DNA from: Zygnema cylindricum
Taxonomy: Eukaryota > Streptophyta > Zygnematophyceae > Zygnematales > Zygnemataceae
Length of the DNA stretch: 62,000 nt
Assembly: GCA_037447655.1 (NCBI GenBank)
Contig: JBBHKE010000092.1
Location: forward strand, 1-62,000
Reading direction: 5' to 3'
The notes beneath the pieces were generated by a model. The model saw only the letters and a program-made list of their open reading frames with translations, was not told the origin of the DNA and did no database searches. The stretch's first letter is position 1. Each line of letters opens with the position of its first letter. Shown one piece after another: positions 7,177 to 60,069 of this stretch. The translations under genes and the position numbers were made by a program.

Positions 7177-8079
7177 TGTTGAAAAGAGGTAATTAATAGT
7201 TCACTTTTACATTTTAGTTGGAGTATAAAGAGAGAGAAAGAGAGAACCAAAGGCACGCCATGGCTGCCGCTTCATTTAGAAGGAGGCAGAATGGAATAGA
7301 AGGTATTTTACTATTTGTAGCAAAATATTGCCTCTGGCCGGATTTGAACCGGGGTCCACGGACTACTATCTAAACCTAAGCCTTATCCATTAAGGCACTA
7401 GCGAAACGATATACGTATTATGTTTCACGCATTTTCATCTATTTATTAAACGGACTAATTTGCAACAGACTAACGAAAACACGCATTAATCAATTCATGC
7501 ATGGAAGCGAATCGAAGCCGCATAAATACAAATGATCGAACGACCACAATTACAGTCGTCATCCGCAATAAACTTCCGGCGGAATTTGGGCATAGCGTCA
7601 CGCGACGCCACGTGACATTATACTATTGGATACCGGAGAAGATGGGAGGAGGAAACATGGCTCACGTTTTGAGAGGCGTCACTTTGAAAGCCATGTCGTA
7701 CAATAGCCGCACAATAAGTACATTGCCTAGTGTACCTTCTTGTACTATATAGTGTTTTTATTGGACTAGGGTTTAGTAGTAGGCAGTTGTAAGTAGGCAG
7801 ACCAGGACTTAGTGAATTTTAGGTACCTCTCTCAAAGAGAGCTTGTAACTATAAATGTCATCTTTGTCAACCCATAACATACTGCTCAGGGGAGCAAATT
7901 CTGTGATTCTTTTTGCTTTTCACTCAAGGGAGTCTTCTCCTCATAGAGGTGAGAGTTTTCAGAATATTTGTGTGCGTGGGTGGTGCTTATTCAACGGGAA
8001 AGTAGAAGGGGCAAATATTATCTTAAAGGCTTTACATAGGCTGCTCATTCTGTGGGTTAATGGAGACCACAAAATTGCA
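7177..8079 (+). repeat. Element A 5' LTR
   Basis: Starts TGTTGAAAAG and ends ATTGCA, immediately followed by the primer-binding site. U3 holds a minus-strand tRNA-like module (7322-7402), CACGTG (7609-7614), four GTAC cores at 7698-7745 and a TATA-like TACTATATAGTG near 7743. R/U5 holds hairpins TGCTC-AGGG-GAGCA (7883-7896), ACTC-AAGG-GAGT (7922-7933) and CTCAT-AGAG-GTGAG (7940-7953). The Gag ATG at 8060 lies inside the LTR. Confidence 0.9.
7322..7402 (-). promoter_or_regulatory. tRNA-like Pol III module, antisense, in A 5' LTR
   Basis: Minus strand: the A-box/D-arm region GCCTTAATGGATAAGGC (7396-7380) closely resembles the D-arm of eukaryotic tRNA-Arg as I remember it. The B box is GGTTCAAATCC (7350-7340) and a T4 run follows (7325-7322). 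The acceptor and anticodon stems are not convincing, so this is a tRNA-derived promoter-like module and not a functional tRNA gene. Confidence 0.65.
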
Positions 8080-8387
8080 GGTTATGGGCCCACCCTCTTG
8101 GGTGCCCATATTTGATGGATCGGACTATCTTTATTGGGAAATGATGATGGAGGGAGAACTATTTGAGAAAAACCTATGGGGCATAGTGTCCGGACAAGTT
8201 CGATGTCCACCTCCACTTAGGTTTGGAGGAACGCGTTTTTTTGGCACCTCTGCCTCTACTATAGGTAGAATAGCTGCCACCATCAGTGAGGATGAAGACG
8301 AGGAAGGAGAGGAGATTGTTATAGAAGGAGAAATGGGAGGAGTTGCAACTCAAGTGACACCATTGCCGAAGGCGATACTGGCAGCAG
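8060..8387 (+). pseudogene. gag: Element A gag, N-terminal part
   Basis: Copia Gag N-terminus. The ATG at 8060 lies 20 nt inside the 5' LTR and the frame crosses the primer-binding site, which is read as VMGPPS at residues 8-13. Then follow the conserved VPIFDGSDYLYWEMM segment and ...LWGIVSGQVRCPPP, shared with all other Gags in the window. The frame is cut at 8387 by insertion of element B and continues at 25709 after one copy of the AGCAG duplication. Gag would assemble the virus-like particle. The start is chosen because every element here has an ATG at the same offset. Confidence 0.8.
8080..8094 (+). promoter_or_regulatory. Primer-binding site, element A
   Basis: GGTTATGGGCCCACC directly follows the LTR CA end. 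It is complementary to the anticodon arm of initiator tRNA-Met, not its 3' end, as known for Drosophila copia, which is primed by a half-tRNA. It is inside the gag reading frame. Confidence 0.85.
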
Positions 8388-9075
8388 TATTGAAAAGTAA
8401 GCTTTAGTAAGTCTTAGAAATTTGAGTCTAGGACTTAGAATATTTTTGGAATACCAACTGTTCAACATTGACCAAATTTAGTGTGGAATTTTTGTAGTAT
8501 CTACACGAATAGTTATCTATAAGTAAATTAGTGTGTAGGGCTGCTAATGAATGTGGACGTGATAAGAATCACCCGGATTTTTAGAGTACAGATATTGTTA
8601 GTGGACAATTCTGGTCTAAATACTTGGATTTTTGTCAGTGGGTTGTCTGGTGAACCCTGTACATACGTTTTAGATGTTTTCTAGATCTTTTGAGTATTAA
8701 GTTCAATTAGGATTGATGAATTCGATACAAAATGTACATTCTACACAGAGTTTAAGGAAATGAGAGCACTAAGTGCAGTTTAAGGTGTTTTGTGCTCCAT
8801 TGCCTTTGATTTACTTCTAGTACATGTTTGTTTGGTTAAAAGACCTCTTTCATTTGTAGTTACATACCTTATAGTATTGATCTAGTCTGATAGGTATTCC
8901 TCTTTGGGTTTGCTTCCGCTAACATGTTTGATAATGGCTCAGCTCCTGCTGCAAGTGCTCCTATTAGCCCTAGTGCTCCACCTGCTCCTCCAGGGACGAA
9001 TATCCCAGCTAGTGCAAGTGTGACTCCTAGTGGGAGTGGATCACAGCCGAGTCTAAATGCCCATGACCTACAACA
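8388..9075 (+). repeat. Element B 5' LTR
   Basis: Matches 25016-25703 over its full length. The last 152 nt are translated in frame with gag (start at 8924), giving a Pro/Ala/Ser-rich leader. I could not recognise a tRNA-like module in this LTR, unlike the others. Confidence 0.9.
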
Positions 9076-9523: not shown

Positions 9524-9528
9524 TATAA

Positions 9529-10576
9529 TGAAACTCTGAGACCTCCATAAGTCCTCAGAGTGGACAGCTTCCAAGAAGCCTCTAGGATAATCCTGACCCC
9601 TTTGTGTTTAAGCAAAAATAACTGCCACCCTGGCAGACAAAAACTTTGACCACCTTCACCCCTGTGAAGGCAAGACTCCCCTGAGTCGATAGCAAAAAGA
9701 ATCTCTGAATTTGCTCCCCTGAGCAGTAAGTTATGGAGGGTCAAAGTTGACCTTTTGTACAGAAGCTCTCTGGGAGAGAGGGTCCTATCTTCTAATTTTT
9801 CTAAGTCCTATCTCTCTCACAGACTCTATCTACTGATTTACGGAACCAATCAGAATTGAGTTTCGTACGCAAAAGTACAGCTGCCGGTGTACTTTAGGTA
9901 CGGACATTGTACGACAAGGCTTAAATGTCGACACATGTCATATCCGGATTCGATGTCATAATCTCCGAGGATTCCACGATCTAACGAAATTTTGCCACGC
10001 GTCATCCGATGTGGCGATGGCCACAAACCGCCGAAAACTTCCTCCGCGATCTCGGCGCTAATTGCGGCCGTCCGATTAGAATCTAATTTAATCGTAGCCG
10101 TAATAAATACATGTGAGGTATTTGTTTCATTTACGAAACAAATGCGCGGTATTGATTTATAGTCCGTACCGTAATCCGTACTTTATATATTACCGGATCT
10201 TTGTATCTTGTAATCTAGTATAGTTAAATGAATAATCGTACGTATATATATTTAAATAACTATCAAACTATATACTACGTATCATGACTCCTAGACGTAA
10301 CGGCTAAGGCTACCGGCTATTCCTGTCTGCCGGCCGCCAGGTACAAGGATCAATTCCTGCCGCCGGCACATACCTTTTAAATAATAAAACCCGAACTAAT
10401 ATAAATTTCCCGTAAACCTCAGGATAGCCTAGGTAGCCATGGCTCTAGCTTCCTCTCCAATTTCTCAGTGACTGCGACAAGTTTGAGAGTTGGAGAGAGA
10501 AGTTAGAGGTAGACTGCCTCGGCTTCTTTATTTCTATTCAGACCTAGAAAATACTTAAAAACCATTAATTTCTACA
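9529..10576 (-). repeat. K LTR 1 (3' LTR)
   Basis: Minus-strand LTR from TGTAGAAATT (10576) to GAGTTTCA (9529). The sense U5 end is at the left. It differs from LTR 2 and LTR 3 at many sites, for example about ten changes between 9865 and 10000, where LTR 2 and LTR 3 agree with each other. Confidence 0.93.
10296..10378 (+). promoter_or_regulatory. tRNA-like Pol III module, antisense, in K LTR 1
   Basis: Plus strand, opposite to the element. A-box-like AACGGCTAAGGCTACC (10299-10314), B-box-like GGATCAATTCC (10347-10357), T4 run at 10375-10378. It lies about 200-280 nt from the LTR 5' end, the same place as in the other families. Confidence 0.5.
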
Positions 10577-10593
10577 CTCCCCTTATTTTCTAG
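10544..10593 (-). promoter_or_regulatory. PPT and bracketing stem-loop, K copy 1
   Basis: CTAGAAAATA (10544-10553) and TATTTTCTAG (10584-10593) are a perfect 10-bp inverted repeat around the polypurine tract (AGGGGAG on the minus strand, 10583-10577) and the first bases of the 3' LTR. The arm next to pol overlaps its stop codon. Confidence 0.75.
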
Positions 10594-11530
10594 TCAATTC
10601 TTAATTTCAGACCACACTTCTCCCTGCAAAAAATTAGCTTAGGGGAAGGCACAGGTTTGGTCATCATATCTGCTACCATCTCACTATCTGGTCGGTACTC
10701 TAAACTGATTATTTTATTTTCTACTTTCTCTCTAACAAAGCTGAGTCTAATGTCCATATGTTTTGCTTTAAAATGATGTTTAGGATTGGCAGAAATAGCA
10801 ATTGCTGCTTGATTATCACAAAATATTTTCTGCACACCACTCTTAAGATGACCAAGTTACCAAGTAAAGACTTGACCCACATCAATTCTGTTACAGCAGA
10901 GCAAGAGGCCATATACTCAGCCTCCATGGTGGACTGAGCAATGACCTTTTGCTGTTTGCTACTCCAACAGCAAGCCCCATCACCCACATATAATACATAT
11001 CCAGAAGTGCATCTCCTCATCGGAGCACCACCATAACTAGCATCACTCCAAGTAGTGATGTCAGTATTCTCCCCACCCAAATGCAACCATAGATCCCTAG
11101 TTCCTATCAAGTATCTAAGAACTCTCTTAGCTGCCTCCCAATCCTTCTTAGTGGGAGCATTTAGACTTCTACTCAGCACTCCTACAGCTGCAGCTAAATC
11201 CGGCCGGGTACAATTCATAAAATAGATTAGACTTCCCACTACTTGCCTGTAAGGAATAGTCTGCATGAACTTCTGTTCTTCAGGAGATAATTCCTCGTCT
11301 AAGACTATGACTCCTCCTTCCTCACTCCCCTCACTTCCCTTCTTCAACTCCATTGGAGTTGTACAACTATTAGCTTTATCCATTTGAAATTTTTCAAGCA
11401 TGTTCCCTATTGCTTCCTTTTGAGTCAATCTTATAATTTTTCTTTTTCGGTCTCTCTCTACTTGAATTCCCAAAATATATTTTGCTTCCCCCATATCCTT
11501 CATTTCAAATCTCCCCTTAAGATCGGTTTT
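10590..11530 (-). pseudogene. pol: K copy 1 RT C-terminus and RNase H
   Basis: Homologous to residues ~630-937 of the intact copy 2 frame. The open part 10721-11503 begins at MKDMGEAKYILGIQ and includes SDASYG and STMEAEY of RNase H. A frameshift near 10855 moves the end, including the CDNQAA motif, into another frame (10590-10835). A further frameshift at about 11545 separates it from the upstream RT. RNase H would remove the RNA template during cDNA synthesis. Confidence 0.85.
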
Positions 11531-11537
11531 TAGTTTA

Positions 11538-12863
11538 TTAATTTTTTTCCATTGATTTACTTAAAACAAGCAAATCATCAACATAAATTGCAATAAATAT
11601 AAAACCTTCCTCATCTTCGAAAACATAGATTGAGTGATCTGAGCTGATCCGAATATATCCTAGACCGGTAAGAAACTCATCAAGCTTCTTATTCCACTGT
11701 CGAGGCGCCTGTTTCAAACCATAAAGAGATTTAATCAGCCGGCATACCTTACTCTCCTCTCCTTCTTCCACAAACCCTTCGGGTTGTCGCATGAAGAACT
11801 CCTCTTCCAATTCTCCATGCAAAAAGGCTGTTTTGATGTCCATATGGTGCACTTCGATGTCTTCCGCTGCTGCCAGGCTGAGAAATATGCGGACGGAGGG
11901 AAATCTGACCACCGGGGCAAAGGTTTTCTCGTAGTCAATTCCCTCCTTTTGTGTAAATCCCTTTGCCACTAATCGGGCCTTGTAGCGCTCGATTGTGTTA
12001 TCTGGGTTCAGTTTTAATTTGAAAACCCACTTACAACCGATTGGTTTTCGGTTAGGTGGACAATCCACCAGCTCCCAAGTATCGGCTGCCATAATTGGGG
12101 CCATCTCTTCATTGATGGCTGTCTTCCACCGATTTCTTTCTGGACAAGTCATCGCCTCTCCATAAGTTTGAGGTTCATCTTGATGAGATAGTTTTGTTAC
12201 CTTGTTATTAACCTGTTTTTCTTGCAGTCTTTTACTACTTCTCCTTCCCCCTTCAAAATCTGAGGCCGGAATAGATGGTTCTCGTAGATTCTTTCGAACA
12301 AACTCGGTTTCTCCCCTATCCCTTGATTCCGAATCAATTTCCACCACGTCTTCCGCTTCGGGTAGAGTTGTCACTGGAGTTTCCACAGCCGAGTCCTTTT
12401 CGGTCTGATTTGTTCCCGCAAGAGTGTCATCTTCTCTAAAACCTGGATAGTTAGGAAGCTCAAAGTCATCGGAATTTTCTGACTCAAATCTGATTTTTAC
12501 TGACTTCGTATATTTGAAGGGATCCACAGACTTTCCTTCATCCATAACTACTAGATGCTTTACTAAGATTATATCTTCCCTTTTTAGATCATAAACTCTA
12601 TATCCTTTAACATCTTCATCATATCCTAATAAGTATCCCGGTTTTCCTTTAGGATCTAGCTTCCAATTGGACCGATCAGTATCTAGACTGAACACTTGAC
12701 TGCCGAAAACCTTTAAATGAGATAAGTCTGGTTTCCGGCCTGTCCATCTCTCATAAGGTGTTTGATCTTTTATAGCTGAAGTAAGAACTCTATTTTTGAG
12801 GTAATTAGCACAGTTCATTGCTTCTGCCCAAAACCTTTTTCCTATCTTCTTATCCGACAACAT
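11538..12863 (-). pseudogene. pol: K copy 1 integrase C-terminus, linker and RT
   Basis: A 441-codon open segment. It starts after the integrase Glu region (MLSDKKIGKRFWAEAM...), runs through the GKPGYLLGYDE segment and an acidic linker, and then RT with the palm Asp in HHMDIKTAF and YVDDLLV near the end. Relative to copy 2 the frame is broken on both sides by single-base indels: a lost base near 12910 and an extra T at about 11545. Sequence identity to copy 2 is very high. Confidence 0.88.
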
Positions 12864-12904
12864 ACTTCTAGCACTATCACTTAGTGTTCTATTTAACCTT
12901 TCAG

Positions 12905-14377
12905 CTACTCATTCTGTTCCGGATTTTCTGGAACTGTCTTTTGGTGTTGAACCCCATCTTCCCTCAAAAAATCCTCAAACTGGTTAGAAGTATACTCTCC
13001 ACCATTGTCACTCCTCACTCTCTTGATTGGAGTTTCATGGAGTTTTTCGCTCCATGCTTTATATTGTCTAAAACAGTCCTCAGCTTCTGACTTGTTTTTC
13101 AAAAAATACACCCGGGAATACCGAGACCAATCATCAGTTATAGTCATCATAAATCTCTTCCCCCCTGGTGAGGGCACTCTAGCCGGTCCCCAAATATTTG
13201 TGTGTACTAGATCTAGAAGTTTTTCTCCCTTATAGGTGGTTGTTTTAGGAAAGGGTAATCTGTGTGCTTTACCTTGAGCACACCCACTACAATCTCTTAT
13301 ATCATCACTCTCACTGAACTGAATCCCTTCCACCACTCCCATCTTTTTCATCTCTCTTAACTTATCTAGATTCACATGCCCAAGCCTCTTATGCCACATC
13401 ATAATATCATGAACACCAGCATAATAAAGTTTCTTCGTTTCATTACTTAAGATCAGCCTAAACATCCCATGGCTACCTTTCTCAGCAATGAAATAGACAT
13501 CCTCCTCAAAACTAGCAGTAAAGACTCCTTCCCTAGTGCTAGTAAAAAAACCCTTATCATCTAATACAGATGTAGAGATAAGGCTTTTGTTCAGTCCCGG
13601 GATAAACAATACATCGGAGAATGTTAATATGGATGTCTTTCCTTCTACTAACATTTTCAGATCTACCGATCCTACAAGAGTAGTGGTGACTATCCTCCCA
13701 TCCCCGTACTCTATCTCTACGGTGGGAATCTTTCTTATCTTAGTGAACAAGTGCCTATCCTTACACATGTGAATTGAGGCACCTGAATCTATAATCCAGC
13801 CTGCTTCACCTTTCAATCCACCGTAAGCACATTTCTGTCTTCGTGGAATTTCAACCTCAGTTTTCACCTCCAACTCCTCATCCAAAAGGAGCTCATCGTC
13901 CTCGTCCTCCTTTTTCTTTCCTCTCGGGGTACCACCGGTCTGCCCCTCCTTTAACCGAAGCTCGGTTAGCTTAGTGCACTCTGCCATATATTTCCCCGGT
14001 TTCTTACAAAAATGACATAAACCTTTGGGAGCCCTTGGTTCGAACTCGTCAACCTGTTTTTTCTGCTCCCTACCCCCATAGTTTCCGACTGGTTTCCGGG
14101 AATCCTTGTTCCTCCAATCGGTCGCTGTTGCCAAGGCTTGGCCACTCTTTCCTCCCCTTCGGATCTCAATTGTATTGCCTCGAACGAGAATCATCCCTAC
14201 CACTAAGTTCCATATCCAGCTTGAGTCCGGCAAGTCCTGCACACGGTTGACTATGTTCTCGAACATATCACGTAACTTCATTAGTAAATAGTTAACCTTT
14301 TCTTTTTCACTAAAAACTTTTCCCGCACTCTCTAGCTCCATGAAGAGTGTAGCAAGCTCATTGCAAAAATCCAACAT
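12905..14377 (-). pseudogene. gag-pol: K copy 1 Gag C-terminus, protease and integrase core
   Basis: A 490-codon open segment. The Gag C-terminal half contains a knuckle CHFCKKPGKYMAEC whose expected His is Lys. A deletion of about 35 bp relative to copy 2 removes part of the acidic spacer. Protease has WIIDSGAS. The integrase HHCC region (WHKRLGHVN...CSGC) is followed by a core reading HTNIWGP where the first catalytic Asp is expected, then SDNGGEY. The frame ends just before the Glu because of a one-base loss. Confidence 0.87.
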
Positions 14378-14913
14378 ATTTCCCCCCTGTATACATACTC
14401 CTTAACTTTCTGATCAGCCAACTGTTGTTGCTGAATCGTACCACTTCGGTACATCTCTATGAGAGCCATCCAAAGATCAGATGCCCTCTCTACCTGCAAA
14501 TGAGGATATAAAAGTCCTTGAGTGAAATGGTGTAGGATGAAGTGCTTTGCCGCCATATTGTTGAAGTCCCAGGTTTCAGTATCATTCTCCTCGTTCCTCG
14601 GAATAGGTGACATGAATGCTAAACCAGTTGCTATTGGTGTGGTCGCCTCCTTCTCCTTTCCTTTGTCTACCACCTCTCCTTGCTTTGTTTCCTCCGTTGA
14701 AGGTGAATCCTCTTTCTTGGTGAATCTGCTTCCTTTAAACCCTGGAGGAATTCGAAGACTTGATGGACGCCCCAATCGTCCACTCACTATCCCCCAAAAC
14801 CTTTTTTCGCATAGAGCTCCTATCATCATACTTTCCCAGTATATGAAGCCAGTTCCATTAAAGATTGGTACCCTTGAGGGTGGGCCCATAACTTGAAACT
14901 CTGAGACCTCCAT
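14332..14913 (-). pseudogene. gag: K copy 1 Gag N-terminus
   Basis: Starts at an ATG 20 nt inside LTR 2 (14913) and reads through the primer-binding site as QVMGPPSRVP. The conserved IFNGTGFIYWESMM, CEKRFWGIVSGR and the capsid-like HLTQGL/LQVERASDLWMAL region follow. A one-base loss near 14390 shifts the frame, so the product would end in a short foreign tail; the correct frame continues in 12905-14377. Confidence 0.88.
14879..14893 (-). promoter_or_regulatory. Primer-binding site, K copy 1
   Basis: Minus strand AGTTATGGGCCCACC next to the end of LTR 2. One base differs from the GGTT form of the other elements. Confidence 0.85.
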
Positions 14914-15940
14914 AAGTCCTCAGAGTGGACAGCTTCCAAGAAGCCTCTAGGATAATCTTGACCCCTTTGTGTTTAAGCAAAAATAACTGCCACCCTGGCA
15001 GACAAAAACTCTGACCACCTTCACCCCTGTGAAGACAAGACTCCCCTGAGTCGATAGCAAAAAGAATCTCTGAATTTGCTCCTCTGAGCAGTAAGTTATA
15101 GAGGGTCAAAGTTGACCTTTTGTACAGAAGCTCTCTGGAAGAGAGGGTCTTATCTCCTAATTTTTCTAAGTCCTATCTCACTCACAGACTCTATCTAGTG
15201 ATGTACGGAACCAATCAAAATTGAGTTCCGTACGTAAAAGTACAGCTGCCGGTGTACTTTAGGTACGAACATTGTACGACAAGGCCTAAATGTCGACACA
15301 TGTGATATCCGGATTCGATGCCATAATCTCCGGGGATTCCACGATCCAACGATATTTCGCCACGCGTCATCCGATGTGGCGATGGCCACAAACCGCCGAA
15401 AACTTCCTCCGCGATCTCGGCGCTAATTGCGGCCGTCCGATTAGAATCTAATTTAATCGTAGCCGTAATAAATACATGTGAGGTATTTGTTTCATTTACG
15501 AAACAAATGCGCGGTATTGATTTATAGTCCGTACCCTAATCCGTACTTTATATATTACCGGATCTATGTATCTTGTAATCTAGTATAGTTAAATGAATAA
15601 TCGTACGTATATATATTTAAATAACTATCAAACTATATACTACGTATCATGACTCCTAGACTTAACGGCTAAGGCTACCGGCTATTCCTGTCTGCCGGCC
15701 GCCAGGTACAAGGATCAATTCCTGCCGCCGGCACATACCTTTTAAATAATAAAACCCGAACTAATATAAATTTCCCGTAAACCTCAGGATAGCCTAGGTA
15801 GCCATGGCTCTAGCTTCCTCTCCAATTTCTCACTGACTGCGACAAGTTTGAGAGTTGGAGAGAGAAGTTAGAGGTAGACTGCCTCGGCTTCTTTCTTTCT
15901 ATTCAGACCTAGAAAATACTTAAAACCATTAATTTCTACA
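14894..15940 (-). repeat. K LTR 2 (shared middle LTR)
   Basis: Serves as the 5' LTR of copy 1 and the 3' LTR of copy 2. In the U5 and middle part it agrees with LTR 3 where LTR 1 differs. No TSD-like duplication separates it from either internal region, as expected for a recombination-born tandem. Confidence 0.93.
15660..15743 (+). promoter_or_regulatory. tRNA-like Pol III module, antisense, in K LTR 2
   Basis: A-box-like TTAACGGCTAAGGCTACC (15662-15679), B-box-like GGATCAATTCC (15712-15722), T4 at 15740-15743. Confidence 0.5.
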
Positions 15941-15957
15941 CTCCCCTTATTTTCTAG
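15909..15957 (-). promoter_or_regulatory. PPT and bracketing stem-loop, K copy 2
   Basis: CTAGAAAATA (15909-15918) pairs with TATTTTCTAG (15948-15957); the polypurine tract is at 15941-15947. Same arrangement as in K copy 1. Confidence 0.75.
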
Positions 15958-18767: not shown

Positions 18768-18812
18768 AATATCATGAACACCAGCATAATAAAGTTTCTT
18801 CGTTTCATTACT

Positions 18813-19508: not shown

Positions 19509-19511
19509 CCT

Positions 19512-20518: not shown

Positions 20519-21058
20519 TTGTACAGAAGCTCTCTGGAAGAGAGGGTCTTATCTCCTAATTTTTCTAAGTCCTATCTCACTCACAGACTCTATCTAGTGA
20601 TATACGGAACCAATCAAAATTGAGTTCCGTACGTAAAAGTACAGCTGCCGGTGTACTTTAGGTACGAACATTGTACGACAAGGCCTAAATGTCGACACAT
20701 GTGATATCCGGATTCGATGCCATAATCTCCGGGGATTCCACGATCCAACGATATTTCGCCACGCGTCATCCGATGTGGCGATGGCCACAAACCGCCGAAA
20801 ACTTCCTCCGCGATCTCGGCGCTAATTGCGGCCGTCCGATTAGAATCTAATTTAATCGTAGCCGTAATAAATACATGTGCGGTATTTGTTTCATTTACGA
20901 AACAAATGCGCGGTATTGATTTATAGTCCGTACCGTAATCCGTACTTTATATATTACCGGATCTATGTATCTCGTAATCTAGTATAGTTAAATGAATAAT
21001 CGTACGTATATATATTTAAATAACTATCAAACTATATACTACGTATCATGACTCCTAG

Positions 21059-21142
21059 ACTTAACGGCTAAAGCTACCGGCTATTCCTGTCTGCCGGCCG
21101 CCAGGTACAAGGATCAATTCCTGCCGCCGGCACATACCTTTT
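21059..21142 (+). promoter_or_regulatory. tRNA-like Pol III module, antisense, in K LTR 3
   Basis: A-box-like TTAACGGCTAAAGCTACC (21061-21078), B-box-like GGATCAATTCC (21111-21121), T4 at 21139-21142. Confidence 0.5.
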
Positions 21143-23515: not shown

Positions 23516-23518
23516 GAT

Positions 23519-29960: not shown

Positions 29961-30041
29961 AAAATACTGCCTCTGACCCAATTTGAACCGGGGTCTACGG
30001 ACTACTATCTAAACCTAAGCCTTATCCATTAAGACACTAGC
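29961..30041 (-). promoter_or_regulatory. tRNA-like Pol III module, antisense, in A 3' LTR
   Basis: Minus strand: A-box region (30039-30019) as in the 5' LTR with one change, B box GGTTCAAATT (29989-29980), T4 at 29964-29961. Confidence 0.6.
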
Positions 30042-30768
30042 GAAACGATATACGTATTATGTTTCATGTATATTCATCTATTTATTAAACACACTAATTT
30101 GCAGCAGACTAAGAAAACACGCATTAATCAATTCATGCATGGAAGCGAATCGAAGCCGCATAATTACAAATGATCGGACGGCCACAATTGCAGTCGCCAT
30201 CCGCAATAAACTTTCGGGGGCCTTTGGGGATATCGTCACGCGACGCCACGTGGCACCATACTATTAGATATCGGAGAAGATGGGAGGAGGAACCATGGCT
30301 TCCGTTTTGACAAGCGTCACTTTGAAAGCCATGTAGTACAATGGCTGTACAATAAGTACATCGCCTAGTGTACCTTCTAATACTATATAGTGTTTTTATT
30401 GGACTAGGTTTTAGTAGTAGGCAGTCGTAAGTAGGCAGACTACGACTTAGTGAAATTAAGGTACCTCTATATAAGAGAGCTTGTAACTATTAAGGTCATC
30501 TTTGATCAGCCATAACTTACTGCTCAAGGGAGAAAATTTAGTGATTCTTTTTGTGTAGAAATTAATGGTATGTTTAAAGTATTTTCTAGATCTAAATAGA
30601 AATATAGAAAGAAGCTGAGGCAGTCTACCTCTAACTTCTCTTTTCAACTCTCAAACTTGTCGCAATCACTGAGAAGTTGGAGAGGAAGCTAGAGCCATGG
30701 CTACCTAGGCTATCCAGAGGTTTACAGGAAATATATATATTAGTTTATTTACCGTTGGGTTATTTACT

Positions 30769-30853
30769 AAAAGAGTATGTTTTTACCTTAGGATTTGATC
30801 TTGGTACCTGCCGGACGCTAATATGCCGGTAGCCGGTAGCCTTAACCGTTAAG
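30769..30853 (-). promoter_or_regulatory. tRNA-like Pol III module, antisense, in S
   Basis: Minus strand: A-box-like CTTAACGGTTAAGGCTACC (30853-30835), B-box-like GATCAAATCC (30800-30791), T4 at 30772-30769. Confidence 0.5.
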
Positions 30854-31374
30854 TATAGACATAGTGTTACGTATTATAGGGTTTGATAATTAGTTAAACA
30901 TTAATACGTAGGATAGTTCATTCAACTAAAACAGTTTTATGGGAGACATAGATCCAATAATGTAAAAGTACAGATTAAGGTATGGATAAGAAACGAATAC
31001 CGCGCATTTATTTCTTTAGCGAAACAAATACGGAGTATGTATTTATTACGACTACGATTTAATGTGAATTTAATCCGACGACCGGAATTCACGCCGAGAT
31101 CGCGGAAGAGAATTTTGGCGGTTTGTGGTCATCGCCACATCGGATGACACGTGGCGAAATTACATTGGATCGTGGTATCTCCGGAGATTACTGCACCGAA
31201 TCTGAATATCACATGTGTCGACATTTAGGCCATGTCATACAATGTCTGTACAGAAAGTACAATGGCAGCTGTACTTTTGTGTACGTAAGTGTACTCTGAT
31301 TGGCTCCGTACATCAGTAGATAGAGTCTGTGAGAGAAATAGGACTTATAAAAATTAGGAGAGGGGATTCTCTCT

Positions 31375-31889: not shown

Positions 31890-32654
31890 ATAAAGGTACA
31901 GGTGTTGGTGTACTTTTTGTACGGCCATTGTACAACATGGCTAAGAACTCGACACATGTCACTTTTGAATTCGTTTCTGTAATCCTCGGATATGCCGTAA
32001 TACAATGTGATTGTGCCACGTGGCAATTGATGTGACGTCGACCGTAATACGCTGAAAACCTTTTTTGCGATCTCGGCATGCTTCGTGGTTGTCCGATTAA
32101 GCCTGATTAGAATCGTGGCCGTCATAAATAATAGCGCAATATTTGTTTCATCTTTGAAACAAGATGAGCGATATCCATTTCGGATGTGTCATACTTTGTA
32201 CATAACGAACTGTATTTATGTCTAAATATCCCGTTAAATGAAATAGCTTACGTGTTAACATTTAAATAACAACCAAACCTTATATCATCTAACCTTGATC
32301 TTAGACTCATGTTGAATGAAATAGCCTACGTGTTAACATTTAAATAACTATTAAACCCTCTATCATACATCTGCGGTTTAGACTAGATGGCTAAGGCTAC
32401 CGGCTACCTTGACGGACAACAGGTACCAGGTTTAAATCTTGGGTCCGCCAAAATCTATTTTGGTAAAATCTACGAACCTAATGTCTTTCCCTGTCGTGAT
32501 ACCATAGGCAACCATGGCTCTATCTCCCTCTCCAACTTTTAGTGACTGCAACAAGTGTAAGAGCTAGAGAGAGGAGTTAGAGGCACAATGCCTCTGCTTC
32601 TTTTTTGCATTTTACAAAACCTAGAAAATACTAAAATAACCTTTAATTTTGACA
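31890..32654 (-). repeat. Element 0 3' LTR, inner part
   Basis: Continuation of 6836-7176 after element A. It contains the GTAC cluster at 31886-31940, CACGTG near 32017 and the minus-strand LTR start TGTCAAAATT at 32654. Confidence 0.87.
32385..32461 (+). promoter_or_regulatory. tRNA-like Pol III module, antisense, in element 0 LTR
   Basis: A-box-like AGATGGCTAAGGCTACC (32385-32401), B-box-like GGTTTAAATCT (32429-32439), T4 at 32458-32461. Confidence 0.5.
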
Positions 32655-36462: not shown

Positions 36463-37481
36463 TATAGAAAGAAGCTGAGGCAGTCTACCTCTAACTTCTC
36501 TTTTCAACTCTCAAACTTGTCGCAATCACTGAGAAGTTGGAGAGGAAGCTAGAGCCATGGCTACCTAGGCTATCCAGAGGTTTACAGGAAATATATATAT
36601 TAGTTTATTTACCGTTGGGTTATTTACTAAAAGAGTATGTTTTTACCTTAGGATTTGATCTTGGTACCTGCCGGACGCTAATATGCCGGTAGCCGGTAGC
36701 CTTAACCGTTAAGTATAGACATAGTGTTACGTATTATAGGGTTTGATAATTAGTTAAACATTAATACGTAGGATAGTTCATTCAACTAAAACAGTTTTAT
36801 GGGAGACATAGATCCAATAATGTAAAAGTACAGATTAAGGTATGGATAAGAAACGAATACCGCGCATTTATTTCTTTAGCGAAACAAATACGGAGTATGT
36901 ATTTATTACGACAACGATTTAATGTGAATTTAATCCGACGACCGAAATTCACGCCGAGATCGCGGAAGAGAATTTCGGCGGTTTGTGGTCATCGCCACAT
37001 CGGATGACACGTGGCGAAATTACATTGGATTGTGGTATCTCCGGAGATTACTGCACCGAATCTGGATATGACATCTGTCCACATTTAGGCCATGTCGTAC
37101 AATGTCTATACAGAAAGTACAACGACAGCTGTACTTTTGTGTACGGAAGTGTACTTTGACTGGCTCCGTATATCAGTAGATAGAGTCTGTGAGAGAGATA
37201 GGACTTAGAAAAATTAGGAGATAGGACCCTCTCTCCCAATGAGCTTCTATACAAAAGGTCAACTTTGACCCTCCATAACTATTTGCTCAGGGGAGAAAAT
37301 TCATAGATTCTTTTTGCTATCGACTCACGGGAGTCTTGCCTTCACAAGGGTGGAGTTGGTCATAGTTTTTTTTTTGCCAGGGTGGCAGTTGTTCTTGCTG
37401 AAACACAAAGGGATCAGGGTTATTCTAGAGGCTTCTTGGAAGCTGGCCACTCTGAGGACTTATGGAGGTCTCAGAGTTTCA
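36463..37481 (+). repeat. Element J 5' LTR (5'-truncated)
   Basis: Nearly identical to S from 36463 to about 37020 (offset 5860), then more diverged; it lacks the 94-bp duplication of S. It ends CTCAGAGTTTCA. Confidence 0.88.
36629..36713 (-). promoter_or_regulatory. tRNA-like Pol III module, antisense, in J LTR
   Basis: Same sequence as in S at offset 5860: A-box-like (36713-36695), B-box-like GATCAAATCC (36660-36651), T4 at 36632-36629. Confidence 0.5.
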
Positions 37482-40681: not shown

Positions 40682-41916
40682 TGTTGAGATTTATGTATTT
40701 TCTAGGTCTCTATTGGAAAAATAAATAGAGTAAGTTAGCAAAGACAACCTGCTTCTCGCTCAACTCTCTCCGGTCCCTATACTTGTTGCAGTCACTGAAG
40801 ACCAAAGAGAGAGCTAGAGCCACGGGTGTCTAAAGAGGATAGGCTAATTCGTAGTTTGTACCAAAATGGTTGTGACGGTTCCAAGATTTGATCCTGGTAC
40901 CTACATCCTATAATAGACGTTAGCTTTAGCCTATAGCTTAGAGTAAACCATGGCATATGTGGGGTACAATAGGTATATATAAATGTAGAAGTAGAGAGTT
41001 CTAACAAACTAACAAAAAACCAAAAACTTCTCTAGACGAGATTTGAACCATGGTATGAGGTTACATTTGTAGAGATAAGCCTTAACCAATAAGGCGTTAT
41101 AGAAACGATACACGTGACGGGTTTCATAAATTAATAAACATTAACAAAACACCTAATTAACAGCAGACTAACCAAAAGGAGCAATTCCTGCATGTACGCG
41201 AATCTGAATCGTGTAAAATATGTTTTGATCGGACGACTGACATTATAGCCGCCACACGAAGTGAGCTTTTGGCGGCATACGGAGATAGCGTCACGCGGTG
41301 CCACGTGGTGCCACATTATTCGATACTGGAGAAGATGGGAGGAGGAACCATGGCTTCCGATTTGACAGGTGTCACCTTGTAGACCTTGTCGTACAATGGT
41401 CGTACAATAAGTACATCGCCCATTTTACCTTCTTGTACTATATCGTGTTCCTATTGGACTAGGGTTCAGTAGTAGGTAGTCGTGAGTAGGCAGACTAAGA
41501 CTTAGTGATATTTAGGTACCTCTCTCTAAGAGAGCTTGTAACTATAAAGGTCATCTTTGACCAGCCATAACTTACTGCTCGGGTGAGCAAATCCAGTGAT
41601 ACTTTTTGCTGCAAACACAAGAGAGTCCAAGCTACACAAGGGTGTAGTCGGTCATAGTCTTTGCGTGCCAGGGTGGCACTTATTCTCTGGGAAAGTCACA
41701 GTGGGGAATATTGTGCAAAACACATATTCAAGCTTTGCATTCTGTGGTGAAACTGAGCACATAGAAGGTCTTCTCTTCACTGGGGTGAAGGGTATTGGGG
41801 TTCTAATTCTCAAGGGACCATTCATTTGGGTTTATATACACTTGGAGTCGGCACTTTCTAGATTAGCATCTTTTGGATATGCGAATTCTGTGGGCAATGG
41901 AGCCCATAGAAGTTCA
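40682..41916 (+). repeat. Element C 5' LTR
   Basis: TGTTGAGATT...GAAGTTCA. CACGTG at 41302-41307, GTAC cores at 41391-41438, TATA-like ACTATATCGTG near 41437. The hairpin array runs from 41549 to 41679 (GGTCA/TGACC, TGCTC-GGGT-GAGCA, CTACAC-AAGG-GTGTAG, GTGCCA-GGG-TGGCAC). Confidence 0.9.
41022..41104 (-). promoter_or_regulatory. tRNA-like Pol III module, antisense, in C 5' LTR
   Basis: Minus strand: A-box region AACGCCTTATTGGTTAAGGC (41098-41079), B box GGTTCAAATCT (41049-41039), T5 at 41026-41022. Confidence 0.62.
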
Positions 41917-43971: not shown

Positions 43972-45184
43972 GTCTGTATTGAAAAAATAAATAGAGTAAG
44001 TCAGCAAAGGCAACCTGCTTCTCGCTCAACTCTCTCCGGTCCCCATACTTGTTGTAGTCACTGAAGACCAGAGAGAGAGCTAGAGCCATGGCTGTCTAAA
44101 GAGGATAGGCTAATTCGTAGTTTGTACCAAAATGGTTGTAACGGTTCCAGGATTTGATCTTGGTACCTACATCATATAATAGACGTTAGCTTTAGCCTAT
44201 AACTTAGAGTAAACCATGGCATATGTGGGGTACAATAGGTATTTATAAGTGTAGAAGTAGAGAGTTCTAACAAACTAACAAATAACCAAAAACTGCTCTA
44301 GACGAGATTTGAACCATGGTCTGTGGTTACATTTGTAGAGATAAGCCTTAACCAATAAGGCGTTATCGAAACGATACATGTGACGGGTTTCATAAATTAA
44401 TAAACATTAACAAAACACCTAATTAACAGCAGACTAACCAAAAGGAGCAATTCGTGCATGTACGCGAATCTGAATCGTGTAAAATATGTTTTGATCGGAC
44501 CGCCGACATTATAGCCGCCACACGAAGTGAACTTTTGGCGGCATACGGAGATAGCGTCACGTGGTGCCACGTGGCGCCACATTATTCGATACCGGAGAAG
44601 ATGGGAGGAGGAACCATGACTTCCGATTTGACAGGTGTCACCTTGTAGACCTTGTCGTACAATGGTCGTACAATAAGTACATCGCCCATTGTACCTTCTT
44701 GTACTATATAGTGTTCCTATTGGACTAGGGTTTAGTAGTAGGTAGTCGTGAGTAGGCAGACCGAGACTTAGTAATATTTAGGTACCTCTCTCTCTAAGAG
44801 AGCTTGTAACTATAAAGGTCATCTTTGACCAGCCATAACTTACTGCTCGGGTGAGCAAATTCAGTGATTCTTTTTGCTGCGCACTCAGGGGAGTCCAAGC
44901 TACACAAGAGTGTAGTCGGTCATAGTCTTTGCGTGCCAGGGTGGCACTTATTCTGTGGGAAAGTCACAGTGGGGAATATTGTCCAAAACACATAATCAAG
45001 CTTTGCATTCTGTGGTGGAACTGAGCACACAAAAGGTCTTCTCTTCCTTGGGGTGAAGGGTATTGGGGTTCTAATTGTCAAGGGACCATTCATTTGGGTT
45101 TATATCAACTTGGAGTCGGCACTATCTAGATTAGCTTCTTTTGAATCTGCGAATTCTGTGGGCAATGGAGCCCATAGAATTTCA
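43948..45184 (+). repeat. Element C 3' LTR
   Basis: Matches the 5' LTR throughout. Hairpin array at 44817-44947, including ACTC-AGGG-GAGT (44883-44894), which is damaged in the 5' LTR. It ends GAATTTCA. Confidence 0.9.
44288..44365 (-). promoter_or_regulatory. tRNA-like Pol III module, antisense, in C 3' LTR
   Basis: Minus strand: A-box region (44365-44345), B box GGTTCAAATCT (44315-44305), T5 at 44292-44288. Confidence 0.62.
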
Positions 45185-48583: not shown

Positions 48584-48593
48584 NNNNNNNNNN
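48584..48593. other. Assembly gap (10 N)
   Basis: Ten unresolved bases. A run of exactly ten is typical of a scaffold join of unknown size, so sequence may be missing here. Confidence 0.95.
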
Positions 48594-48892
48594 TCTTAGC
48601 CATCTAGACTTTCAGTATCACCTTCCCTTTTGGAACTATAAATGTTAGAGGCTACGTAACAAATAAGATCTCAATTTGTTTTTGGAATAGAGATGTAGCT
48701 ATAATCTACTATTTCCAAAACTTTGATCGTGGTCTTTTACTCAAAAATATCGATCGAAACTCCTTCTACACATAAAGTGACGACTCTTTCCATCGGTTCC
48801 TTACAAATCCAAACGAAATCCATTATTTTTTGAGTTTGAAATGATACAACCACAGTTACTATTATATAATACCGTATTCTCTGAACCCATAA
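48594..48892. other. Unassigned sequence right of the gap
   Basis: AT-rich, no recognised LTR, gene or motif; it joins directly to the truncated integrase of element E. Confidence 0.5.
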
Positions 48893-51916: not shown

Positions 51917-52151
51917 GCAGTGATCGCAATCCGGAAAAACATCCATTTCGCAATGTCGACTTCTTCCTCTGCCGTTATATTGATATCGACTTTAATTCAG
52001 AGTTGTTTAAAATAAAACTGGTATTTTCTTATGTAACTATATCTATCTATCTCTATGTGATTGTGGTTCGTTCGTGAGTTGAATAAACTTCTATATTTCC
52101 ATATCTTTAAGTAGCTATCTTAACCTATATACTTCAACATCGGTCCTAGTC

Positions 52152-52231
52152 TATAGGCCAAAGCTACCAGCTACAGGCAGATTGACAAACGGTAGGTACC
52201 AGGATCAAATCCTAGGTCCGTCAACCTTTTT
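52152..52231 (+). promoter_or_regulatory. tRNA-like Pol III module, antisense, in E LTR
   Basis: A-box-like TATAGGCCAAAGCTACC (52152-52168), B-box-like GGATCAAATCC (52202-52212), T5 at 52227-52231. Confidence 0.55.
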
Positions 52232-52439
52232 GATAAGTTTACCAAAAAGGACTGCCTTGTGACTCTAGGGGAAGCATAGGCTGCTATGGCTCTGGCTTCC
52301 TCTCTAGCCTTCAGTGACTACGCCAAGTATGGGGGCTAGAGAGAGAAGTTAGAAGTAGGCTACCTTTGCTTTTTCCTGCTCAAACTTAAACCAATTAAGT
52401 AACCTAGAAAATACCTAAGTAAACCTTTTAATTTCAACA

Positions 52440-53314
52440 ACGAAGGCCTTTTGGGGGCCTTCGTCCTCCAGGCTGATTTCTTTCCCCTTTGTACGTTTTC
52501 TTCGGGTCCTTCCCCCATCAGTCTCCTCCAGCAGCTAGAGCTTGAATGCTCTTTCCTCCTCTCCTAATCTCCATGGTGTTTTCATGTACAAGTATCATCC
52601 GGACCACTATATTCCACTTCCATGAACTATCAGTCATTTCTTGCACTGAGTACATTATGTTTTCGTACTCGTTTGGTAACTTCATGGTGAGAGTGTTAAC
52701 TTTAATCTTCATTGTACTTGTCCACCTGGCACTTTCCATCTCTTTATACAAACAAGAAAGATCATTACAATAATCTAACATCTTTCCTCCTTTGTAAGTG
52801 AAACTCGTTAGCTTTTGCTCACCCAACTAGAGCTCTTGAATAGTTCCTGCTCTATAGATCTCCACCAAACTCACCCATAACTCCTCGGCCTTGTAAATGT
52901 GAAGGTGAGGGGTGACCAAAGCTTGAGTGAGGTGCCTTAGAATGAAGTTATAGGCAGCCTTGTTAACGTCTTCCCACATTTGAGTATCGTTCTCCGCGGT
53001 CTTCACGGTCGCCGCTCCTGGTGTCGTGGTTATAAGAGTGAGGGGTGTCTCATTGCCTTTTCCCTTTTTGGACACACTAATTCTCCATCATCTGCCTCCT
53101 CCGCTGAAGCAGTCGCTGTTGCAGGAAACCTTACTCCTCCAAATCCTGGTGGAATTCTCGAAGGTGGACGTTTCACTTGTCCACTCTTGATACCCCAGTA
53201 TCGTTTTTCGCACAGAGCCTCCATCATCATGGCTTTCCAATAGATGAACCTATATCCATTGAAGGTGGGCACCTTAGAGGGTGGGCCCATAACCTGCAAT
53301 TCTGTGTCCTCCAT
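52440..53314 (-). pseudogene. gag: Element G gag
   Basis: Starts in the LTR at 53314 (MEDTELQVMGPPSKVPTFNG, the primer site read as QVMGPPS). FIYWKAMMMEALCEKRYWG and IPPGFGGVRF follow. Frameshift near 53060, then NFILRHLTQALVTPHLHIYKAEELWVSL, a stop near 52828, then KLTSFTYKGGKMLDYCNDL and KLPNEYENIMYSVQEM to ALAAGGD at 52518 and a stop. A GC-rich hairpin (CGAAGGCC...GGCCTTCG, 52441-52464) lies at the junction with E. More diverged from K than D or E are. Confidence 0.83.
53280..53294 (-). promoter_or_regulatory. Primer-binding site, element G
   Basis: Minus strand GGTTATGGGCCCACC beside LTR end GAATTGCA. Confidence 0.85.
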
Positions 53315-54300
53315 TAGACTATTGAATTTAGAAAGCCTCTAGATAGTTTTTATCTAACCCACTTCAAGCCACAACCACTGCTGCCCAAAAGAGCAAATTG
53401 ATAGTGTGACAACAACCCTGTGCAGCCTGGACTCCCCTGAGTCTATAGCAAAAAGAATCACTGAAAACGGCCAACCAGCCGATTTATTATGAGGTGGCAA
53501 AGATGCCAAGTTTATACAAACTCTCAAAGGGAGAGAGGTCACTACCTACCAAATTCTCTAAGTCCTAAACCCCTCTCAGAACCCCTATCTACCGACGTAC
53601 GAACGAATCAAATGACTGTAGGGTACAGAAAGGTACTATGGCCGATTTACTTTCTATACGGCTTGTGTATAGCAAGGCCATTGAGTGGACGCGTGTCCAC
53701 TTTTAGCTCGTCCTTATGTTCCTTGGAATTCCTGCGACTAAATGTTATCCCTCCACGTGGCGCCACGTCATGCCACGTCCATAAACGCCAAAGTGACCAT
53801 TCCACGATCTCGACAGTGATATACGCCGTCGGATTAAATCCAACATTAAATGTCTACCGTCGAAACAAATGTCTGATTCATTTGTTTCGTGCGAGATAAT
53901 GTTCGCACTATATAACACTTTTTACTATGTTCATTTGTTCGTCATTCGGTTAATCGAATTCATGGTCTTAACATAGTTTAAATTACTATCAAACCTATTG
54001 TATCCTAACCGACTTCTACGACAAACTGGTTAGAGCTAACGCTATGCCGCGTTGTGCCGGTCAGAGGTTCGAGTCTTGCCGGACTCAACCTTTTGTTGGG
54101 AGTGACATAAGTCACTCTTTAGTCCTACCTGCTTAGCTAGGACAGCCATGGCTCAACCACCCTCTCTATCCCTCGGTGACTACAACAAGAATGGTAAGTA
54201 GAAAGAGGAGGTGGAGGCAGGCTGTCCGCCTTTTTCTTTTCCTATTTGTACCGAGCTATTTAGACCTAGAAAATACCATATAAATCTAATAATTTCAACA
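53295..54300 (-). repeat. Element G 5' LTR
   Basis: From TGTTGAAATT (54300) to GAATTGCA (53295). The U3 has CACGTGG and CCACGTC boxes at 53753-53780 but only two GTAC cores near 53623-53635. Confidence 0.88.
54024..54094 (+). promoter_or_regulatory. tRNA-like Pol III module, antisense, in G LTR
   Basis: The best tRNA look-alike. A-box/D-arm AACTGGTTAGAGC (54024-54036), a possible anticodon stem AACGC/GCGTT (54038-54053), B box GGTTCGAGTC (54066-54075), T4 at 54091-54094. The stem of the T arm is only partly paired. Confidence 0.65.
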
Positions 54301-54720
54301 TTGCGTGGTATTTGTTTATGATGTTCCGTATGCCGTACAACACAAACTGTATCTATGTCCAAATATCCCGTTAATTGAAATAGCCTACGTGTTAATATTA
54401 ATATAATTATCAAACCCTATGCCGTTTAACCTTGATCTTAGACTAATTGGCTAAGGCTACCAGCTACCGGCGACTCTGACAGACGGCAGGTACCAAGTTC
54501 AAATCTTGGGTCCGTCAATTACTATTTTGGTAAATCTTCCAATCTAATGTTTGTCCCCGTCTCGATGGCATTGGCGGCCATGGCTCTATCTCCCTCTCCA
54601 ACTTTCACTGACTGCATTAAGTGTGGGGGCTCGAGAGAGGAGTTGGAGGCAAACTGCCTCTTCTTCTTTTCTACATTTTACAAAACCTAGAAAATACTAA
54701 GATAACCTTTAATTTCTACA
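54301..54720 (-). repeat. Element H 3' LTR, U3 part
   Basis: Matches the U3 side of 59037-60069 (for example TATCTATGTCCAAATATCCCG). It ends at TGTAGAAATT (54720) next to the polypurine tract (54721-54727). The bracketing stem is degenerate here (CTAGAAAATA at 54687 against TTTTTTCTTG). Confidence 0.87.
54446..54528 (+). promoter_or_regulatory. tRNA-like Pol III module, antisense, in H 3' LTR
   Basis: A-box-like ATTGGCTAAGGCTACC (54446-54461), B-box-like AGTTCAAATCT (54496-54506), T4 at 54525-54528. Confidence 0.55.
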
Positions 54721-58000: not shown

Positions 58001-58109
58001 TGATCACCGTCCTCGTCCTCAAATTTTGCCTTATGTACCTGTGTCACAAGGGCCTTTTACTTTCCTCTCGGGGGTCCACCGGTCTGCCCCTCCTTTAGCC
58101 GCAGCTTGG

Positions 58110-59056
58110 TTAACTTAGTGCACTCAGCCATATAGTGCCTTGTTTCTTACAAAAATGGCACAAACCTTTGGGAGTCCTTGGTCCGAACTCCCTGCTCTGA
58201 TGTTTTTGCCCCTCCCCTCTATAATTTCTGACCGGTTTCTTGGAATCATTGTTCCTCCAATCGGTCCTAGTTGCCAAGGCTTGCCCAATCTGTCCTCCCC
58301 TTCGGATCTCAATCTTATTCTCCCGAACGAGAATCATCCCTACCACTAAACTCCAAATCCTCCTTGATTTCGACAAATCTTGCACACGGTTGACTATGTT
58401 CTCGAACTCATCTAGTAACTTCATGCGCAAACAGTTAACCTTCATCTTTTCAGTTTCAACTTGTTCAGCACTCTCTAGCTCCATAAAAAGTGTTGCAAGC
58501 TCATTACAAAAATCGAACATCTTCCCCCCTTTGTTTAAATATGCGTCAATTTTTTGACACCCAACTGCTGTTGTTGGATCGTACCACTTCGGTACATCTC
58601 TATGAGAGCCACCCAAAGATCGGATGCCCTCTCTACTTGCAAATGAGGAGATGCAAGCCCTTGAGTAAGATGACGGAGGATGAAGTGCTTAACCGCCACA
58701 TTGTTATAGTCCCATGTATCAATATCATACTCCTCGTTACTTAGAATTGGTGACATGAATGCCGAACCGGTTGCTATTTGTGTGACCGTCTCCTTCTCTT
58801 TTCCTTTGTCCACCACCTCCCCTTCGTTTGTCTTCTCTGTTGAAGATGGATCTGCATCTCTAGTGAATCTGCTTCCTGTAAACTCTGGAGGGATCCCTAG
58901 ACTTGATGGACGCCTCACCCGTCCACTTACTATTCTCCAAAATCGTTTCTCACATAGAGATCCTGTCATCATACTTTCCCAGTATATGAAGCCAGTTCCA
59001 TTGAAGATGGGCACCTTAGAGGGTGGGCCCATAACCTTCAACTCTGAGACCTCCAT
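58110..59056 (-). pseudogene. gag: Element H gag
   Basis: The ATG at 59056 is in the LTR; MEVSELKVMGPPSKVP crosses the primer-binding site. FNGTGFIYWESMMTGSLCEKRFW, then FILRHLTQGLASPHLQVERASDLWVALIEMYRSG up to a frameshift near 58565. The second block 58110-58616 contains MFDFCNELATLFMELES and NIVNRVQDLSKSRRIW, and half of the knuckle (CHFCKKQG), then a frameshift. Confidence 0.86.
59022..59036 (-). promoter_or_regulatory. Primer-binding site, element H
   Basis: Minus strand GGTTATGGGCCCACC. The LTR end reads GAGTTGAA, the usual CA being AA. Confidence 0.83.
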
Positions 59057-60069
59057 AAGTCTTCAGAGTACCCAGCTCACACGAAGCCTCTAGGATAACC
59101 CTGACCCCTTTGTGTTTCAGCAAGAATTAGTTCCACCTTGGCAAACTAAATCTCTGACTCCCTTCACCCCTGTGAAGGGAAGACTCCCATGAGTCTATAG
59201 CAAAAAATATATATAAATTTGCTCCCCTAAGTTGTAAGTTATGGAGGGTCAAAATTGACCTTTTGTACAGAATCTCTCAAGGAAAGAGGGTCCAATCTAT
59301 CAAATTTTTCTAAGTCCTATCTCTCTCTAAAACTCCATCTACTGAAGTGCGGCACCAATCATAATATTGCGTCGTCCATAAAGGTACAAGTGTCGGTGTA
59401 CTTTCGGTACGACCATTGTACGACATGGCCAACAAGTCGACACATGTCATTTTTGGATTTGTTCCTGTAATTTCCGGAGATGTCGTAATCCAATATGGTT
59501 GTGCCACGTGTCAATCGATGTGACGTCGACCCCAAACCGCCGAAAACAAATTCCGCGATCTCATCATGCTTTGCAACCGTCCGATTAAACCGGATTTCAA
59601 TAGTAGCCGTCATAAATCCTTGCGCGATATTTGTTTTGCCTTCGAAACAAAGTGCATGGTATTTGTTTCTGATGTTCCGTACGTCGACAAACACAAACTA
59701 TATCTATGTTCAAATATCCCGTCAAATGAAATAGTCTACGTGTCAATATTTATATAATTATCAAACCCTTTACGTTTAACCTTAATCTTAGACTATCTGG
59801 CTAAAGCTATGGGCTACCAGCGGCTCTAACACACAGCAAGTACCAGGTTCAAATCCCGAGTCCGTCAATTACTATTTTGGTAAATCTACCAATCTAATGT
59901 CTGTCCCTGTCCGGATAGCATTGGCGACCATGGCTCTATCTCCCTCTCCAACTTTCAGTGACTGCAACAAGTGTGGGAGCAAGAGAGAGGAGTTAGAGGC
60001 AGACTGCCTCTACTTCTTTTTTGCATTTTACAAACCTAGAAAATACTAAAATCACCTTTAATTTCTACA
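59037..60069 (-). repeat. Element H 5' LTR
   Basis: From TGTAGAAATT (60069) to 59037. GTAC cores at 59377-59425, TGCCACGTGT near 59501. Hairpin array is decayed (for example GGGGAGC without its partner near 59222). Confidence 0.88.
59796..59878 (+). promoter_or_regulatory. tRNA-like Pol III module, antisense, in H 5' LTR
   Basis: A-box-like TCTGGCTAAAGCT (59796-59808), B box GGTTCAAATCC (59846-59856, canonical), T4 at 59875-59878. Confidence 0.6.

Follow-up and report, generated by a model that had tools for sequence, protein, structure and literature searches.

Antisense tRNA-like A-box, B-box and T-run modules in the U3 regions of coding Ty1/copia elements from Zygnema cylindricum

The stretch analysed here, the first 62,000 nucleotides of Zygnema cylindricum contig JBBHKE010000092.1 (the window), consists of related Ty1/copia elements nested in one another, which have direct long terminal repeats (LTRs) and gag-pol open reading frames (ORFs) that reach 952 aa. 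It raises the question of why the U3 regions of these LTRs contain segments resembling the internal promoter of a tRNA gene, and whether these could direct RNA polymerase III (Pol III) against the element. An initial annotation had reported an A-box-like segment, a B-box-like segment and a T-run in 13 instances, always in antisense orientation to the element. The observation is confirmed and extended: 14 of the 16 LTRs examined contain such modules, 16 in all, and every one of them (16/16) is antisense. LTR fragments without U3 were left out of module scoring, and no module was found in the two LTRs of the unrelated 690-bp B family.

Antisense modules in the U3 regions

The modules span 75-90 nt from A box to T-run (A-box starts were partly counted by hand) and have a regular geometry (Table 1). 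In all 16 the T-run starts 23-29 nt after the start of the B box, and none has a T4 in the interval from 60 nt before the B box to its end; in A1 the first 480 nt of the LTR contain, on the antisense strand, no run of four or more T residues other than the module T4. Shuffled LTRs reach this T-run placement in 1.8-3.1% of cases (nine modules tested). Real tRNA genes have ~21 nt from position 52 to position 73 before the terminator, so the B box and terminator here are separated as in a tRNA gene. The order of A box, B box and downstream T-run is likewise that of a Pol III type 2 gene. In LTR coordinates the type 2 and C modules have their B-box start at 199-249 (213 in E; 199 only in S2, whose LTR start is truncated), K at 174, and the second E module at 368. 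The E LTRs look chimeric, the first ~300 nt being type 2-like and the remainder K-like, and hence have two modules of different type in tandem, each with its own terminator. The K1 A box resembles the sequence of tRNA-Arg.

The best combined antisense score for A box, B box and T-run is 14-17 of 18 in the 14 LTRs, and in 12 of these it is equalled by only 0-6 of 300 shuffles. On the sense strand A, E and K1 score 12-14 and the other module-bearing LTRs nothing. A profile built from the 16 modules matches the window 16 times at better than E = 0.01, always antisense and always within an LTR, with nothing further better than E = 3. When one lineage is left out of the profile it is recovered at E values of 9e-20 to 3e-3; the exception is C, found at E = 0.84, yet still the best non-member. 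The box scores of single LTRs are modest by themselves, and it is jointly that the boxes exceed chance.

The boxes are also the better conserved parts of the module. All of the module-bearing LTRs are homologous, and representatives of the six lineages are 42-68% identical over their first 500 nt. Between-lineage identity is 80-82% in the 3' half of the A box and in the B box, falling to 62-65% immediately ahead of the B box and to 55% at the T-run; the upstream segment, the spacer and the post-B stretch share 30-51% (spacers 35-40%). Positions matching tRNA G18, G19, A21, G53, T55, A58, T60 and C61 are kept in all nine representatives, and that matching C56 in eight of nine. In an alignment-free comparison both boxes score 50-51 of 60, against a maximum of 48 in 15 shuffles. 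The proposal that the module is a conserved part of these LTRs is supported across six lineages. Its occurrence in many families was claimed as well, but their independence was overstated, because the LTRs are homologous. The modules are therefore not independent origins, their orientation and position are largely a matter of shared descent among related copia lineages, and the shuffle probabilities are not to be multiplied as if independent.

What the module retains is the promoter letters and not the tRNA fold. ARAGORN predicts no tRNA in the window, and Rfam lists no tRNA family there at E <= 10; focused Rfam searches give just a 4-bit T-loop match to transfer-messenger RNA and a 10-bit NEAT1 match for the K1 module, and no match for the C module. 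RNAalifold finds three pairs in the aligned modules. In the acceptor stem 38.5% of cells are paired (shuffles, 39.0%), and in the D and T stems 64.4%, where shuffles give 61.0% (12/500 as high) and a shift of one column gives 61.5%. A real tRNA gene is ruled out by ARAGORN, by Rfam and by the lack of a conserved cloverleaf, which argues for a module that is promoter-like. A tRNA-derived short interspersed element (SINE), whose copies would be dispersed outside LTRs with target duplications of their own, does not fit either, as the 16 copies detected by the profile in 62 kb are all in LTRs. The exact type 2 T-arm pattern has no match in the collections of viral contigs and of genome contigs.

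Table 1. Coordinates of LTRs, antisense modules and adjoining hairpins in the window; signs in parentheses give strands.
LTR	LTR coordinates (element strand)	Module type	Module (strand)	Module features	Hairpin (strand)	T-run after hairpin
K1	7177-8079 (+)	1	7322..7397 (-)	B box GGTTCAAATCC, T4		
K2	29816-30553 (+)	1	29961..30036 (-)			
A1	9529-10576 (-)	2	10292..10378 (+)		10428..10530 (+)	no later T4 within LTR
A2	14894-15940 (-)	2	15657..15743 (+)		15793-15895 (+)	no later T4 within LTR
A3	20293-21339 (-)	2	21056..21142 (+)		21192-21294 (+)	no later T4 within LTR
S1, solo LTR	30553-31715 (+)	2	30769..30855 (-)		30607..30709 (-)	no later T4 within LTR
S2, start truncated	36463-37481 (+)	2	36629..36715 (-)		36467-36569 (-)	no later T4 within LTR
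H	31885-32654 (-)	2	32379..32461 (+)		32503..32608 (+)	T6 32601-32606, 7 nt past base
E1, first module	40682-41916 (+)	2	40863..40940 (-)		40720..40834 (-)	T5 40717-40721, 20 nt past base
E1, second module	40682-41916 (+)	1	41022..41096 (-)	own T5		
E2, first module	43948-45184 (+)	2	44129..44206 (-)		43986-44100 (-)	T6 43982-43987, 20 nt past base
E2, second module	43948-45184 (+)	1	44288..44362 (-)	own T5		
Z	U3 starts 52439 (-)	2	52147..52231 (+)	T5	52275..52380 (+)	T5 52370-52374, 4 nt past base
C	53295-54300 (-)	divergent	54017..54094 (+)	B box GGTTCGAGTCT, D-loop-like AACTGGTTAGAGC	54137..54242 (+)	T5 54231-54235, 3 nt past base
G3, LTR fragment	54302-54720 (-)	2	54439..54528 (+)		54569..54674 (+)	T4 54667-54670, 7 nt past base
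G5	59037-60069 (-)	2	59789..59878 (+)	full-consensus B box GGTTCAAATCC	59919..60024 (+)	T6 60017-60022, 7 nt past base

Promoter, primer contact or relic

We favor, at what we judge to be about an even chance, a reading in which the U3 of this coding Ty1/copia clade holds an antisense Pol III type 2 unit of tRNA origin. We infer TFIIIC and Pol III activity from the boxes and their conservation, the spacing, the T-runs, and the strand and position of the modules. The A-box-like and B-box-like segments, ~50 nt apart, would be the TFIIIC contacts, followed by the T-run at tRNA-gene geometry; with TFIIIC bound, Pol III would start ~10-20 nt before the A box and yield an antisense RNA of ~90-100 nt that terminates at the first T-run, part of the transcription continuing into an adjoining conserved hairpin. 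The tRNA fold would have been lost and the promoter boxes retained, and a covarying cloverleaf is not expected if only the promoter is kept. Any gain to the element would most likely be local: at the outer LTR edge, a unit that is active or bound by TFIIIC could limit read-through or silencing, or a short antisense or hairpin RNA could itself provide the benefit. Were the unit active, the two strands of a single LTR in a coding retrotransposon would serve different polymerase systems, a matter relevant to the resistance of such elements to read-through and silencing and to the origin of new Pol III promoters.

Several observations weigh against this reading. Single-LTR box scores are weak in S1 and S2, where 37 and 32 of 300 shuffles respectively equal the antisense score; the sense-strand score of E (14) is as high as the antisense score of S. 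Across lineages the whole A box shares just 45-50% identity, and only five of the nine representatives keep T54, the other four having A. In type 2 modules the stretch ahead of the B box, AGGTACCA, is more conserved than TFIIIC should require, and it resembles the initiator methionine tRNA (iMet). Other U3 blocks equal or exceed the boxes in the alignment-free comparison (GTATTTTCTAGG scores 56, the LTR terminus 52, CTTGTTGCAGTC 51 and GCCATGG 51), and the regularity of the modules is partly descent, the LTRs being homologous. As to the first of these blocks, GTATTTTCTAGG is the most conserved U3 12-mer and lies just inside the LTR start (LTR positions ~14-37 in A, G, Z, C and E); it is identical in five of the six lineage representatives and absent from K.

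The antisense Pol III or TFIIIC interpretation in the initial annotation fits the box conservation, the tRNA-gene-like spacing and the lost fold, but it overlooked a contact with the primer tRNA of the kind found in Ty3. In the sense genomic RNA the module could be the U3 half of a bipartite primer-binding site (PBS), with the PBS pairing the anticodon region of iMet and the U3 its variable loop and T arm. This is the main rival because most type 2 modules resemble the iMet T arm, although we consider it unlikely. The four tRNA sequences compared are provisional, a single one being corroborated, by the PBS match. Ten PBS-like sites are present, eight identical (GGTTATGGGCCCACC) and two with 1-2 mismatches; the site is a 15-nt complement of iMet, which we take to be an anticodon-region site of the Drosophila copia and Ty5 kind. 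The available part of PMC5371799 mentions half-tRNA and anticodon-loop priming for Drosophila copia and Ty5 elements, and describes the precedent of a Ty3 U3 that contacts the T and D arms of iMet.

In local alignments of the module iMet is the top of the four tRNAs in six of eight type 2 rows (18 of 22 nt in E1), tying with Leu in G5 and falling below Arg in A1. The duplex energy of its T half is the strongest in seven of eight type 2 LTRs, with the Ile T half slightly ahead in H, and the module is the best iMet T-half site within the first 480 nt in all eight. In many LTRs, however, the module is the preferred pairing site of control tRNA halves too, which is to be expected of any T loop. 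Although the PBSs of K and C are still of the iMet type, these LTRs pair better with Leu and Ile T halves; that they keep their B boxes even so counts for the Pol III reading. In no LTR does the duplex of the iMet D arm at the A-box site rank first (rank 3-92 in 11 LTRs), and Arg or Ile D arms do so in 8/11, though this box is as conserved as the B box. Complementarity of U3 to the primer tRNA is thus not found in every family, a provisional result, as the tRNA sequences are themselves provisional. The contact also leaves the T-run at tRNA-gene distance unexplained, and if a 5' half-tRNA primes, the T arm is no part of the primer. The two roles could coexist, because a piece of a tRNA gene is a promoter on one strand and a tRNA complement on the other. 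Should the module be a second primer-tRNA contact instead, the Ty3-type bipartite PBS would extend to copia elements priming from the anticodon region.

A tRNA or SINE-like sequence may alternatively have been captured once in an ancestral U3 and now be passive, its conservation reflecting descent or overlapping Pol II sites. The homology of all module-bearing LTRs and the equal conservation of other U3 blocks are consistent with this, and SINE capture is the origin proposed for Helenus in the available text of PMC10886601. We nonetheless find it rather improbable: the boxes are ~81% identical next to decayed spacers although the representatives share only 42-68%, the T-runs hold their place, and no copy lies outside LTRs in the window. 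More doubtful still is a role of the boxes as TFIIIC sites without transcription (extra-TFIIIC) that insulate or that attract the integration of other elements. In its favor, the B box is better kept than the whole A box, and the C LTR has inserted into the U3 of G3 near LTR position 420, some 135 nt upstream of the module. On the other side, the A-box 3' half and the T-run position are likewise kept, and LTRs received just two of the five nested insertions placed by eye, a number too small to point to targeting.

The adjoining hairpin and the surrounding elements

Between the LTR start and the module, 12 LTR copies from A, S, H, G, Z, C and E contain a hairpin of ~90 nt. It lies at LTR positions ~50-150, and its apical part is conserved near CAGTGACTGCAACAAGT (antisense strand). 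Pairing in alignment "A3" extends to 92.9% of cells, compared to at most 52.8% in slid versions, and there are 23 double-sided changes against 10.1 in shuffles, none of 500 shuffles reaching 23; 10 of 32 pairs show a double change. Further pair types are not raised over shuffles (25 vs 26.6). The consensus of alignment "A2" folds at -36.1 (z -10.0) on the antisense strand and at -21.5 (z -5.9) on the sense strand, and the 11 distinct rows of "A3" give -37.3 and -23.3 respectively. Ten of the 12 copies are more stable on the antisense strand, H and C being slightly better in sense, and the 25 pairs common to the structures of both strands have no wobble bias (13 vs 12). In per-sequence folding scans a window over the hairpin ranks first on the antisense strand in A1, Z and E2 and within the first three in S1, H and G5, but lower than third in C; K1 has a stable antisense window at 51-160 (z -4.2). 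Given these mixed folding and pair-type results, the case for the hairpin rests on its covariation. A hairpin-loop pattern matches 28 viral contigs, which we judge to be chance.

A T4-T6 run on the module strand follows the hairpin base within 3-7 nt in H, G3, G5, Z and C, and after 20 nt in E. The covarying hairpin and these T-runs count in favor of the antisense Pol III unit. It is tempting to combine these parts into an antisense Pol III cassette in which a tRNA-derived A/B promoter, a leaky T4, the covarying 90-nt hairpin and a second T-run would give a structured RNA of ~230 nt, possibly processed, against the element's own strand; lineages would have exchanged promoter modules derived from different tRNAs. 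We think this improbable as a whole. Against the antisense unit itself stand the lack of a T4 after the hairpin within the LTRs of A and S, K, which has the module but in which no clear hairpin counterpart was found, and the first T4, which sits between module and hairpin and would stop Pol III earlier, so that a single joint transcript needs read-through. Such a cassette, if real, would parallel the microRNA (miRNA) cassettes in the U3 of foamy viruses, outside animal retroviruses.

A 951-residue gag-pol translation matches 3672 proteins at E <= 1e-50, some of them named copia-type gag-pol, and its closest relative among the best 120 of these 3672 is an unnamed protein at 68%. With residues 1-420 of that relative nothing else was found at E <= 1e-30 among 7987 candidates scored, and one scan each of the viral-contig and genome-contig collections gave no stretch encoding a relative. 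Positions 9529-21339 are an LTR-internal-LTR-internal-LTR tandem of one element family with repeats 97-98% identical, which probably arose by recombination between copies. The only N run in the window (48584-48593) is flanked by sequence that is reversed without being complemented: read backwards, 48254-48583 is 86% identical over 319 nt to an A-type LTR U3 and 48597-48891 matches the gag-pol of other elements, and 48594-49266 is a 94% mirror repeat of itself. The reversed sequence on both flanks of this 10-N gap (48254-48583 and 48594-49266) is an assembly artefact. An AT-rich repeat with many inverted self-matches occupies 60072-60603; its matches to miRNA families are below the curators' cut-offs and of low complexity.

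Comparison with known systems

Both tRNA-like sequence in LTRs and Pol III cassettes in U3 are already known; among the open-licence PMC matches listed, none showed an antisense module in coding copia LTRs or its pairing with a hairpin. The available part of PMC5911963, on retrotransposon targeting to Pol III genes, mentions no tRNA-like or antisense modules.

The type 2 U3 regions resemble the bipartite PBS of Ty3 in that they can pair with the T arm of iMet, the primer, and differ from it (as far as described in the available text of PMC5371799) in the unmatched D arm, the loss of the T-arm match in K and C, and the presence of T-runs. Cassandra likewise has a Pol III promoter within its LTR, but according to the parts available of PMC10853983 and PMC10886601 it is a 5S-derived sense promoter in a non-coding element.

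A close likeness is to Helenus (TRIMp3), a group of terminal-repeat retrotransposons in miniature (TRIMs) with tRNA-like sequence in their LTRs (PMC10886601, Kojima 2024; available in part). As here, the A and B boxes are conserved and the tRNA-like part is mostly no functional tRNA, and most fungal Helenus families have anticodon-loop PBSs and a link to copia. Helenus elements, however, are non-coding and 311-1263 bp long, whereas here single A and E LTRs are 1047-1237 nt and accompany gag-pol ORFs of up to 952 aa. The tRNA-like part of Helenus is regarded as the element's own sense promoter, whereas all 16 modules described here are antisense; the available text does not use the word "antisense", and expects autonomous partners to use Pol II promoters.

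Foamy viruses (bovine, BFV, and simian, SFV) have Pol III primary miRNA cassettes in U3, as described in the available text of PMC7693620. These are animal retroviruses with proven transcripts, some of them with dumbbell double hairpins; the Zygnema unit is a predicted one with a tRNA-like module before the hairpin, and its antisense orientation may be a further difference. Compared with a foamy-type hairpin that is followed by a T-run on the promoter strand, the picture is mixed: T4-T6 runs come after the hairpin base in H, G3, G5, Z, C and E, none does so within the LTRs of A and S, and the first T4 lies between promoter and hairpin.

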